From the NCBI RefSeq assembly GCF_004339675.1, contig NZ_SLVM01000031.1, forward strand, positions 1 to 37,814: DNA of 37,814 bases. Direction: 5' to 3'. Source of the stretch: Rhodovulum steppense (GTDB taxonomy: Bacteria; Pseudomonadota; Alphaproteobacteria; Rhodobacterales; Rhodobacteraceae). The notes under the pieces are model-generated. The model was not told where the DNA came from. It did not search any database and worked only from the letters and a program-made list of their open reading frames with translations. The position numbers were made by a program, and so were the translations under genes. Shown here piece after piece: positions 18,833 to 22,127 of this stretch (within the stretch, counting starts at the first letter, position 1; every line of letters begins with the position of its first letter).

Positions 18833-18949
18833 CCGCCGCCCCGCGCCGCTTGAACTCGGATCGGGGGGAGGCAAGAGTGATTGGCGACAACGCCCCGCAG
18901 AGGGCGTGGGCGGCATGACCGCAGGCAAACAGGTGAGGACGACGTGACC

Positions 18950-20200
18950 ATGACAGCCCCCGGAGAGAATCTGAAGATCAACGGCGAACGGCTGTGGGAC
19001 AGCCTGATGGAGATGGCGCAGATCGGCCCCGGCATCGCGGGCGGCAACAACCGCCAGACCCTGACCGATGCCGATGCCGAGGGCCGCGCGCTGTTCCAGC
19101 GCTGGTGTCAGGAGGCGGGCTGCACCCTGGGCGTGGACGAGATGGGCACGATGTTCGCCACCCGGCCCGGTGAGGATCCGGATGCGCTGCCGGTCTATGT
19201 GGGCTCGCATCTCGACACCCAACCGACGGGCGGCAAGTATGACGGGGTGCTGGGGGTGCTGGGGGGCCTTGAGATCATCCGCACGCTGAACGATCTGGGC
19301 ATCCGCACGAAGCACCCGATCGTCGTCACCAACTGGACCAACGAGGAGGGCACGCGCTTTGCCCCCGCCATGCTGGCCTCGGGCGTCTTCGCCGGCGTGC
19401 TCGAGCAGGACTGGGCCTATGACCGGCGCGATGCCAAGGGGCTGCGCTTCGGCGACGAGCTGGACCGGATCGGCTGGAAGGGCGACGAGCCCGTGGGTGC
19501 GCGCAAGATGCACGCCTTCTTCGAGTTGCACATCGAGCAGGGCCCGATCCTGGAGGCCGAGGGCAAGGAGATCGGCGTCGTCACCCACGGCCAGGGCCTG
19601 CGCTGGATCGAATGTACCGTGACCGGCAAGGGCCAGCACACCGGGTCCACGCCGATGTACCTGCGCCGGAACGCCGGCCGCGGCATGGCGCGGGTGATCG
19701 AGCTGGTCCACGAGATCGCCATCGCCCGCCAGCCGAACGCGGTGGGGGCGGTGGGGCATGTCGACGTCTACCCCAACAGCCGCAACATCATCCCCGAAAA
19801 GGTCGTCTTCACCGTCGATTTCCGCAGCCACATCCTGGACACGCTGGACGCGCTGGTGGCCGAGTTCCTCGCCCGCGCGCCGGGGGTCTGCGCCGATATC
19901 GGGGTCAAGTTCTCGTCCGAGCTTGTCGGCTTCTTCGACCCGCCCGCCTTCGACCCGGTGCTGGTGGGCCGCGTGCGCGACGCCGCCGAGCGGCTGGGCT
20001 ATTCCCACATGGACATCGTCTCGGGCGCGGGCCACGACGCCTGCTGGATCAACCGTGTGGCGCCCACGACCATGGTGATGTGCCCCTGCGTGGACGGGCT
20101 CAGCCACAACGAGGCCGAGGAGATTTCCCCCGAATGGGCCGAGAAGGGCGCGAACGTGCTGTTCCACGCGGTGGTGGAGACGGCGGAGATCGTGGGGTGA
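18950..20200 (+). CDS. N-carbamoyl-beta-alanine amidohydrolase (beta-ureidopropionase), M20 type
   Basis: Zn-dependent hydrolase of the hydantoinase/carbamoylase M20 branch, third enzyme of reductive pyrimidine degradation, releasing CO2, ammonia and a beta-amino acid. The 416-residue protein has metal ligands in YVGSHLDTQPTGGKYDGVLG (H87, D98) and NEEGTRFAPAM (E132, E133). It also has HIEQGPILEAEG, GKGQHTGSTPMYLRRNA and the substrate-site segment SGAGHDACW. The start MTAPGENLKINGERLW is chosen; a GTG two codons earlier is possible. Allantoate amidohydrolase and hydantoin carbamoylases share this fold, so the exact substrate rests on the neighbouring dihydropyrimidinase and dehydrogenase genes. 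Confidence 0.88.
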   Translation: MTAPGENLKINGERLWDSLMEMAQIGPGIAGGNNRQTLTDADAEGRALFQRWCQEAGCTLGVDEMGTMFATRPGEDPDALPVYVGSHLDTQPTGGKYDGVLGVLGGLEIIRTLNDLGIRTKHPIVVTNWTNEEGTRFAPAMLASGVFAGVLEQDWAYDRRDAKGLRFGDELDRIGWKGDEPVGARKMHAFFELHIEQGPILEAEGKEIGVVTHGQGLRWIECTVTGKGQHTGSTPMYLRRNAGRGMARVIELVHEIAIARQPNAVGAVGHVDVYPNSRNIIPEKVVFTVDFRSHILDTLDALVAEFLARAPGVCADIGVKFSSELVGFFDPPAFDPVLVGRVRDAAERLGYSHMDIVSGAGHDACWINRVAPTTMVMCPCVDGLSHNEAEEISPEWAEKGANVLFHAVVETAEIVG

Positions 20201-20220
20201 GGCCGGTTCCCGAAGACCCC

Positions 20221-20241
20221 GTCCCGGGCTTGACCCGGGAC
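20221..20241. repeat. Palindromic repeat element after the amidohydrolase gene
   Basis: Arms GTCCCGGG and CCCGGGAC are perfectly complementary around the loop CTTGA. This 8-bp stem has the look of the short interspersed palindromes common in alphaproteobacterial genomes. It begins 21 bases after the amidohydrolase stop and might also act as a transcription attenuator. Confidence 0.55.
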
Positions 20242-20260
20242 CTCTGCCCGCCGGCCAGAA

Positions 20261-20294
20261 GCGGCGAGGCCCCGGCGCGGAGGCCGGGGCGGGG
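20261..20294. repeat. Left copy of the palindrome pair flanking the GIY-YIG gene
   Basis: Begins GCGGCGAGGCCCCGGCGC and contains the hairpin arms GCCCCGGC (20269-20276) and GCCGGGGC (20283-20290) around a 6-base loop. The first 18 bases are identical to the copy 360 bases to the right (20621-20638), which lies just beyond the GIY-YIG gene. Confidence 0.7.
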
Positions 20295-20332
20295 TTTACA
20301 CTTGCTTAACCGGTTTTCGCGACCCTGCGCGA

Positions 20333-20614
20333 ATGGTGCATTGGGTCTACATCATGGCATCGCGCCCGGGCGGGGCGATCTATATCGGGCGCACGCACGA
20401 CTTGCGGCAGCGGGTCGAGGCGCATCGCGCCGGGCTCTCCGCGCATACGGCCAGATACAACATCCGAACCCTCGTCTGGTTCGAGGCCCATGCCGAGTTC
20501 GAACCCTCCTTGCGCCGGGAACGCCAACTGAAACGCTGGCGGCGCGCGTGGAAGGATCAGTTGATCACCGAGTCCAATCCGAACTGGAAGGATATGACCC
20601 ACGCGATCCCCTGA
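20333..20614 (+). CDS. Small GIY-YIG nuclease-family protein
   Basis: Single-domain GIY-YIG protein of 93 residues, of the short UPF0213-like type. The motif strands are VYIMASRPGGAIYIGRTHDL (residues 5-24), where VYI replaces GIY. A conserved arginine region (LRQRVEAH), a glutamate/arginine helix (EPSLRRERQLKRW) and an asparagine near the end (SNPNWKD) follow. These match the catalytic layout, so it may be an active nuclease, though the biological role of these short proteins is unclear. It interrupts the run of pyrimidine genes and is bracketed by near-identical palindromes on both sides. The ribosome binding site is weak. Confidence 0.85.
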   Translation: MVHWVYIMASRPGGAIYIGRTHDLRQRVEAHRAGLSAHTARYNIRTLVWFEAHAEFEPSLRRERQLKRWRRAWKDQLITESNPNWKDMTHAIP

Positions 20615-20620
20615 GTGCCG

Positions 20621-20653
20621 GCGGCGAGGCCCCGGCGCAAGGCCGGGGCGGGT
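20621..20653. repeat. Right copy of the palindrome pair flanking the GIY-YIG gene
   Basis: Begins GCGGCGAGGCCCCGGCGC, the same 18 bases as the left copy. It has arms GCCCCGGC (20629-20636) and GCCGGGGC (20642-20649) around a 5-base loop. It differs from the left copy mainly in the loop. It ends 20 bases before the dihydropyrimidinase start. Confidence 0.7.
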
Positions 20654-20672
20654 GGCAACAGGGAGAAAACGA

Positions 20673-22127
20673 ATGACCACAATCATCAAGAACGGCACCA
20701 TCGTTACCGCCGACCTGACCTACAAGGCCGATGTAGCCGTTGAGGGCGGCAGGATTCTCGAGATCGGGCCGGACCTGAAGGGCGATGAAACCCTCGACGC
20801 GACCGGCTGCTACGTCATGCCCGGCGGGATCGACCCGCATACGCATCTGGAGATGCCCTTCATGGGCACCTACTCGGCGGACGATTTCGAATCCGGCACC
20901 CGCGCGGCCCTTTCGGGCGGCACCACGATGGTGGTGGATTTCGCGCTGCCGAGCCCCGGGCAGGGGCTGCTCGACGCGCTTCAGATGTGGGACAACAAGT
21001 CGACGCGGGCGCATTGCGATTACTCGTTCCACATGGCGGTCACCTGGTGGTCGGAACAGGTCTTCAACGAGATGGAGGCCGTCGTCCGCCAGAAGGGCAT
21101 CACCACCTTCAAGCATTTCATGGCCTACAAGGGCGCCTTGATGGTGAACGACGACGAGATGTATGCCTCGTTCCGCCGCTGCGCCGAACTGGGGGCGATC
21201 CCGCTGGTCCATGCCGAGAATGGCGACGTGGTGGCCGAATTGCAGCGCCGCCTGCTGGACGAGGGCAACAACGGCCCCGAGGCGCATGCCTATTCGCGCC
21301 CCCCCGAGGTCGAGGGCGAGGCCACCAACCGCGCGATCATGATCGCCGACATGGCGGGCGTGCCGCTTTATGTCGTCCACGTCTCCTGCGAGGAGGCGCA
21401 TGAGGCGATAAGGCGCGCGCGGATGCTGGGCAAGCGGGTCTGGGGCGAACCCCTGATCCAGCACCTGACGCTGGACGACAGCGAATATGCCCATCCCGAC
21501 TGGGACCATGCCGCGCGGCGCGTGATGTCGCCCCCCTTCCGCAACAAGCGCCATCAGGACAGCCTGTGGGCGGGGCTGGCCTCGGGCTCGCTGTCGGTCG
21601 TGGCGACCGATCATTGCGCCTTTACCACCGCGCAGAAACGCTTTGGCGTGGGGGATTTCACCAGGATCCCGAACGGGACCGGCGGACTTGAGGATCGGTT
21701 GCCGATGCTCTGGACCCACGGGGTGGGCACCGGCCGGCTGACGCCGAACGAGTTCGTGGCCGTGACCTCGACCAATATCGCCAAGATCCTGAACTGCTAT
21801 CCGAAAAAGGGCGCGGTGCTGGTGGGGGCGGATGCCGATCTGGTGGTCTGGGATCCCGAGAAGGAAAAGACGATTTCTGCGGCGACCCAGCAATCTGCGA
21901 TAGATTACAACGTGTTCGAGGGCCACAAGGTCAAGGGCCTGCCGCGTTTCACGCTGACGCGGGGGCGCGTTGCGGTCCATGACGGCGAGTTCCGGGGCGA
22001 GGAAGGGCATGGGCAATTCGTGCGGCGCGAGCCGAACGGGGCGGTGAACCGGGCGCTGTCGTCCTGGAAGGAACTGACCGCGCCGCGCAGGGTGGAACGG
22101 ACGGGGATTCCGGCAAGCGGGGTCTGA
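20673..22127 (+). CDS. hydA: Dihydropyrimidinase
   Basis: Hydrolyses dihydrouracil or dihydrothymine to the N-carbamoyl-beta-amino acid, second enzyme of the reductive pathway; homologues are also used as hydantoinases. The 484-residue cyclic amidohydrolase has the metal motif GGIDPHTHLEMP (H56, H58) and the probable carbamylated lysine in FKHFMAYKGAL (K153). It also has further ligands in VHAENG and VVHVSCEEA, and the catalytic aspartate in VVATDHCAF. PNGTGGLEDRLPMLW lines the active site in the family. The ATG at 20673 follows AGGGAGAAAA; an earlier ATG at 20652 lies within the palindrome repeat. It is followed after 51 bases by an ABC importer operon. Confidence 0.94.
   Translation: MTTIIKNGTIVTADLTYKADVAVEGGRILEIGPDLKGDETLDATGCYVMPGGIDPHTHLEMPFMGTYSADDFESGTRAALSGGTTMVVDFALPSPGQGLLDALQMWDNKSTRAHCDYSFHMAVTWWSEQVFNEMEAVVRQKGITTFKHFMAYKGALMVNDDEMYASFRRCAELGAIPLVHAENGDVVAELQRRLLDEGNNGPEAHAYSRPPEVEGEATNRAIMIADMAGVPLYVVHVSCEEAHEAIRRARMLGKRVWGEPLIQHLTLDDSEYAHPDWDHAARRVMSPPFRNKRHQDSLWAGLASGSLSVVATDHCAFTTAQKRFGVGDFTRIPNGTGGLEDRLPMLWTHGVGTGRLTPNEFVAVTSTNIAKILNCYPKKGAVLVGADADLVVWDPEKEKTISAATQQSAIDYNVFEGHKVKGLPRFTLTRGRVAVHDGEFRGEEGHGQFVRREPNGAVNRALSSWKELTAPRRVERTGIPASGV

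Follow-up and report, generated by a model that had tools for sequence, protein, structure and literature searches.

A GIY-YIG nuclease gene and its flanking palindromes as a putative cognate mobile unit in Rhodovulum steppense and related genomes

The window, i.e. the whole stretch of 37,814 nucleotides from Rhodovulum steppense which was analyzed here, carries a small GIY-YIG nuclease gene surrounded by palindromes, and the nuclease and these palindromes appear to be one cognate unit in which the palindromes would be the recognition sites that the nuclease nicks or cuts (a reading to which we give a probability of roughly 70%). Comparison with related genomes supports that the gene and its palindromes move or get exchanged as one unit, and the pairing of palindromes tends to be specific to the individual gene even within one genome. 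The initial annotation had proposed that the GIY-YIG protein acts on its own flanking palindromes; this core proposal seems largely right, and from sequence comparison there is good reason to favour it. In the mechanism proposed here, a small stand-alone GIY-YIG endonuclease would recognise its own palindromes, most likely in the form of single-stranded hairpins that bear an end tag, and would nick or cut them. The cutting would start recombination through which the unit, as a block, is exchanged, moved to another place or retained; it may also let solitary palindromes build up in some genomes as REP-like repeats. Binding, cleavage, the preference for single strands and cutting as the driver of movement are what we infer within this mechanism.

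The nuclease gene and its product

The gene lies at 20333..20614 on the plus strand, between two host genes which are also on the plus strand, an amidohydrolase of the allantoate amidohydrolase or carbamoylase type (18881..20200; NF006769, 676 bits; the true start may be further in) and a dihydropyrimidinase (20673..22127; TIGR02033, 601 bits). It is intact, stands alone and encodes 93 amino acids with a PF01541 profile match (E 5.1e-14), and the GIY-YIG domain at residues 3-74 is the sole domain detected. The residues Y6, Y17, G19, R27, H31, E63 and K67 are kept in 78-81 of the 81 aligned sequences, the catalytic ones in 80 (Y6), 81 (Y17), 78 (R27) and 80 (E63), and no stop codon was found in the 81 nuclease sequences; the protein has both the PF01541 domain and the catalytic Y, Y, R and E of the GIY-YIG superfamily. 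An AlphaFold2 model of the protein reached a pLDDT of 96.8, and its nearest solved fold by Foldseek was 1zg2 (UPF0213 BH0048, E 6.6e-5), followed by Slx1 and UvrC below significance. By sequence the nearest solved structures were 1zg2 (8.6e-9) and 1ywl (1.2e-5), so that UPF0213 or YhbQ-like GIY-YIG proteins are nearest by sequence and, for 1zg2, by fold; both entries are without assigned function. A role in anti-phage defence was dropped, as the nuclease matched 0 families in PADLOC-DB.

Two minor observations concern the gene itself. A GTTAAC-like motif, perhaps the promoter of the nuclease, lies a few tens of bases 5′ of the nuclease start in many junction loci (20294-20332 in the window), and no sigma-70 consensus was found near it at the junction of the window. 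In another genome one open frame of 362 amino acids (G157:C203:681-1361; L054, L057) holds two weak GIY-YIG matches and is a possible tandem-domain relative.

Palindromes in the window and in its genome

The 18-nt segment GCGGCGAGGCCCCGGCGC is found at 20261-20278 and again at 20621-20638 with a spacing of 360, and both copies are followed by a common 13-mer, AGGCCGGGGCGGG, which starts at 20281 and 20640. This repeat, the hairpin opened by each copy and the 93-residue GIY-YIG gene which they surround had all been given in the initial annotation and were verified. In 2000 dinucleotide shuffles of 20201-20672 an 18-nt repeat was absent (largest repeat 17), and at least two other 18-mer repeats occur in the GC-rich window (17549/29449 and 34726/35357).

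Three palindromes were delimited at the junction. H1 (20217..20246, plus strand) has a C-GTC head and a CTC tail, with the stem at 20221-20228/20234-20241, and reads GTCCCGGG-CTTGA-CCCGGGAC at 20221-20241, CTTGA being the loop. H2 (20261..20293, minus strand; stem 20269-20276/20283-20290) contains the left 18-nt copy and is the inverted partner of H1, and H3 (20621..20652, minus strand; stem 20629-20636/20642-20649) contains the right copy and is a direct repeat of H2. Stem and loop measure 8 and 5 in both H1 and H3, and the loop of H2 is 6. H1 had been annotated as a third palindrome left of the left copy; it is present, but it is not a separate element, since H1 and H2 are one inverted (REPIN-like) pair and H3 is solitary. 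Folded as single-stranded DNA, H1 is far more stable than its shuffles (z -4.0, 0/200), and H2 and H3, because they are GC-rich, fold no better than theirs (z -1.2, 23/200 and z -0.6, 43/200).

The genome, in which the window is contig C31, measures 3.66 Mb and has two PF01541 matches, namely the gene at 20333..20614 and a frame of 688 amino acids on C13, taken for UvrC by its size. The pattern GAGGYCCCGG-N7-CCGGGRCG has four exact matches in this genome at two places, i.e. H1 (20220-20244) with H3 (20626-20650) and a pair at C1:35466-35533; H2 is missed because of its longer loop. Up to two mismatches added 7 further matches, compared to 3 for the control, and with so few extras and only two places the genome is therefore not REP-rich. 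The pair on C1 (L003) is the only other inverted palindrome pair of the H1/H2 type in the genome and includes the only second exact copy of H1 (C1:35512-35532 of G000), and no PF01541 gene was found on contig C1. A large REP population in the own genome was rejected as well from the 16-mer GGCGAGGCCCCGGCGC, whose exact matches are only the two sites of the window; when up to 3 mismatches are allowed it gives 770 matches, against 603 for the reversed control.

Distribution among relatives

The nuclease gene was found in 1 of 16 genomes of the genus, that of the window, and in the family (198 genomes, one per genus) a nuclease profile match was found in 20. Allowing at most 1 mismatch, 5 or more palindromes were counted in 15 of the 20 nuclease-bearing genomes and in 17 of the 178 others (Fisher p 4e-10, which ignores phylogeny), and 20 or more in 9 of 20 and 7 of 178 (p 1e-6, likewise ignoring phylogeny); the highest count among relatives was 389, also with at most 1 mismatch (G050). 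The nuclease profile matched in 0 of the 8 palindrome-richest nuclease-negative relatives searched, by which a strict dependence of the palindromes on the nuclease is ruled out. Some nuclease-bearing genomes poor in this palindrome (G025, G054) have the gene bracketed by other palindromes.

It had been asked initially whether GIY-YIG genes of this type are places where palindromes cluster, and both the enrichment of hairpins near the gene and the matched flanks across relatives support this. Named genomes were scanned for relatives, and the best 80 of the 227 obtained were analyzed with a hairpin criterion of a perfect stem of 8 or more and a loop of 3-9. In these 80 loci the hairpin density is 4.60 per kb up to a distance of 150 bp from the gene, falls to 0.92 between 150 and 300 bp and is 0.22-0.39 further out; beyond 1 kb the density is 0.38-0.39, about 12-fold below that of the 150-bp zone. 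Hairpins within 300 bp are present on both sides in 36 of the 80 loci (1.4% at random places) and on neither side in 26, many of which show longer or imperfect palindromes by eye. Irrespective of any hairpin criterion, the two 250-bp flanks have a common word of 12 or more bases in 65 of 79 loci; for other places in these loci the rate is 5.4%, and between different loci it is 13.4%. A word of 15 or more is common to the flanks in 47 of 79, compared with 0.3% and 5.8%, respectively; a strong flank match is missing in 14 of the 79. The same two host genes surround the nuclease in 31 of the 80 loci, and the other 49 are without a match to both, some of them being cut by contig ends.

Genomes with several copies are the most informative in this respect. 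The class-wide profile search gave matches in 208 of 387 genomes with up to 11 per genome (E up to 0.001, weak ones counted), and the paralog set was made of 78 genes from 30 of the 33 genomes having two or more places among the matches listed; G402, G404 and G483 were left out, as were two copies close to contig ends. A similarity of 40 or more between upstream and downstream flank was obtained for 59 of 78 genes with their own flanks, for 14 of 166 crosses between paralogs, for 28 of 800 pairs between genomes and for 5 of 390 places elsewhere in the same locus. When the flanks were permuted within genomes, the observed sum of own pairings was reached in 0 of 5000 permutations, and the own mean exceeded the cross mean in 30 of 30 genomes, with a small margin in some (G505: 18 and 22 vs 17 and 18); 19 of the 78 paralogs have no strong upstream/downstream match. 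In G317 the palindromes of 8 paralogs are different, and in 800 kb of one of its contigs the number of other copies is 0, apart from 3 for one palindrome and 1 for another flank hairpin. Own matching so far above the matching across paralogs, together with the nearly private palindromes of G317, excludes that the palindromes belong to a single REP family which is spread over the genome and lies close to genes of any kind. As a side observation, one locus (L049, G003) has a run of about 45 G on its left flank beside the palindromes of a second paralog of its genome, which is possibly an assembly or slippage tract.

Relocation and exchange of the units

In Bradyrhizobium the unit is found as a discrete segment with defined ends at different sites. 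When 1.4 kb on each side was compared, locus L188 had only 480-490 bp, running from palindrome to palindrome, in common with L191, L197 and L198, and the relocated unit has its ends at CTCGTGTCCCGG and CCGGGACACGAG. L191 and L197 have their right side in common, and their divergence begins at the left palindrome. At the junction of the window, the host genes of Mameliella alba (L130) and Mameliella sp. (L145) closely resemble each other, but the nucleases and palindromes are different, the nucleases being 80% and 57% identical to that of the window, respectively. On a host-protein tree of 40 junction loci (one of 41 had no host-protein match), type-II nucleases require 9 changes, at least 6 of them forced by starred branches. 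These repeated changes of nuclease type and the Mameliella swap indicate that whole units were exchanged repeatedly at one site.

The palindromes of the junction have a common core, GTCCCGG..CCGGGAC, and differ in their heads, which are C-N-C with type I nucleases and GCA or GCT with type II. Taking the majority of each locus and scoring unclear heads as not G, a G-type head is found in 9 of the 10 type-II loci and in 1 of the 24 type-I loci with a readable tag; both the nuclease types and the head classes were defined after inspection of the data, and five loci belong to neither type. The host tree gives six independent contrasts, and in these head and nuclease change together 5.2 times on average and never in opposite directions (sign test, median p about 0.06). 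For the C-type head, 3 changes are required on the nuclease tree, compared to 12.5 in shuffles. This correspondence of head and nuclease may reflect recognition, and physical linkage alone predicts the same pattern.

The mobile unit proposed in the initial annotation is supported with regard to relocation and exchange as a whole and to private pairing, but the clean empty site which a simple insertion between amidohydrolase and dihydropyrimidinase would leave was not found in the relatives surveyed. The junction was surveyed in 44 dihydropyrimidinase loci, two of which are the window itself: the gene is present in 9, the adjacent amidohydrolase is absent in 2 and the gene is absent in 33. In these 33 junctions, where the host genes are adjacent, no clean empty site was found; 15 have a spacer of 25-128 bp, many with another hairpin, and 18 are filled with 231-1256 bp of other sequence. 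In the closest congeners, whose amidohydrolase is 95.9-97.2% identical, the junction measures 99, 433 and 459 bp and its content is unrelated, compared to 472 in the window. Gene-free junctions which hold a short hairpin spacer or other sequence, all different among the congeners, thus point to replacement and not to simple insertion as the state of the junction. The junction (20201-20672, L062-L102) is in itself a spot of turnover, occupied in close congeners by small ORFs which differ from one to the next or by a short spacer with a hairpin. In many nuclease-free relatives (L090, L093, L094, L096-L098 and others) a spacer made of GGGGGGCCAGCCCCCCGGACCCCCCGGGGTATTT and then AAGAAGAAG is found upstream of the dihydropyrimidinase, which looks like another repeat or a terminator.

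Alternative explanations

The same observations were weighed under three other explanations. If the REP-like palindromes were recombination hot spots, homologous recombination would shuffle whatever genes lie between two copies, and the nuclease could be a mere passenger of this kind. Palindromes without a nuclease match in all 8 rich genomes searched, the fast turnover of the junction with other sequence too and recombination breakpoints falling in the palindromes agree with such hitch-hiking; it is unlikely nevertheless, because a private palindrome for each paralog of one genome would not be expected from passive shuffling, the palindromes of G317 are nearly without copies elsewhere in 800 kb, and matched flanks at random places of the same loci amount to only 1.3-5.4%. 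It is quite improbable that the unit is a classical insertion sequence which ends in hairpins by chance, with the nuclease as its transposase. The sharp-ended relocated unit, up to 11 copies per genome and ends which match better inverted in 74 of 123 strong matches would fit it, but the ends are direct in 47 of the 123, those of the window among them, the copies residing in one genome are 44-75% identical, i.e. not recent duplicates, and have different ends, and a clean empty site was not seen at the junction of the window.

An ordinary role of the palindromes in terminating transcription or stabilising mRNA, on either side of a gene acquired laterally, is very improbable, even though the gene run is operon-like with the palindromes at gene ends, and REPs are known in such roles, as the cited passages have it (PMC3733652). 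The palindromes have no T-run, and within 20150-20720 a single terminator-like site was detected, inside the gene but on the opposite strand, which is no more than what shuffles give; matched gene-specific palindromes on both sides and a tag which follows the nuclease would be left unexplained. A cognate unit of nuclease and palindromes is the reading that we retain.

Comparison with known systems

Site-specific single-stranded DNA nucleases of the GIY-YIG type, called Ssn, are reportedly described, with the NTS repeats of Neisseria, in a study of 2025 in Nat Commun. They are reportedly small stand-alone proteins with widespread homologs, each having its own target, and the target in Neisseria is reportedly a repeat of many copies. 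We presume that the unit of the window is probably of this kind; a target tied to the nuclease is found here as well, by association. The genome of the window differs from the Neisseria case by its tiny repeat population, with four exact pattern matches at two places. Beyond what the Ssn nucleases offer, the comparison brings a flanking pair of palindromes, a sharp-ended relocating unit, a swap of whole units and a match of tag and nuclease; what is added to the known kind is the private palindromes of each paralog, the sharp-ended units, the whole-unit swaps and the correspondence of head and nuclease.

RAYT/TnpAREP REPtrons likewise consist of a nuclease-type gene bracketed by its REPs, and the cited passages indicate that the end tag matters for recognition there (PMC8266576, PMC3733652). 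RAYTs are, according to the same passages, HUH tyrosine transposases with GTAG tags, whereas the protein of the window is a GIY-YIG nuclease; membership among the RAYT REPtrons was rejected, only a GIY-YIG domain and no HUH tyrosine transposase being present.

The REPs with a CGTC tag are described by Di Nocera 2013 as mostly alphaproteobacterial and not associated with transposase genes, and GIY-YIG is unmentioned in the consulted passages on them (PMC3733652). No published link of GIY-YIG genes with REPs or CGTC palindromes was found in the literature searched, which was mostly open-access and in part excerpts and leaves absence unproven. The GIY-YIG family is a candidate enzyme for the CGTC-type REPs. 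Tentatively, and with some doubt on our side, it could even be their missing mobiliser, acting in a transposition-like or homing-like manner without HUH or DDE, with nuclease and tagged hairpin co-diversifying as interchangeable units and solitary REPs being dispersed substrates. The CGTC REPs, which by the cited passages were apparently without a dedicated transposase in 2013 (PMC3733652), now have a concrete enzyme to test. The system has controls built in, i.e. paralogs which differ in their palindromes while sharing a cell, and two nuclease types, exchanged at one chromosomal site, whose tags differ; many natural enzyme-target pairs are on offer for the site-specific cutting of hairpin DNA.

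As far as the cited description goes (PMC3733652), the palindromes of the window have in common with the CGTC REPs a stem of 8, a loop of 5 (H1), inverted dimers and an alphaproteobacterial host group. A stem of 8-9 with a loop of 4-5 is found in H1 and H3 (8/5), and H2 has a loop of 6. An unpaired CGTC tag, a stem starting with AT and a CCA-like tail are not found in them: the GTC of the head is paired with GAC, the stem starts with GT and the tail is CTC and not CCA. Palindromes of paralogs such as L206 (CGTC-ATTCTCGC-GAAA-GCGAGAAT-CCA) fit the cited description of CGTC REPs in full.
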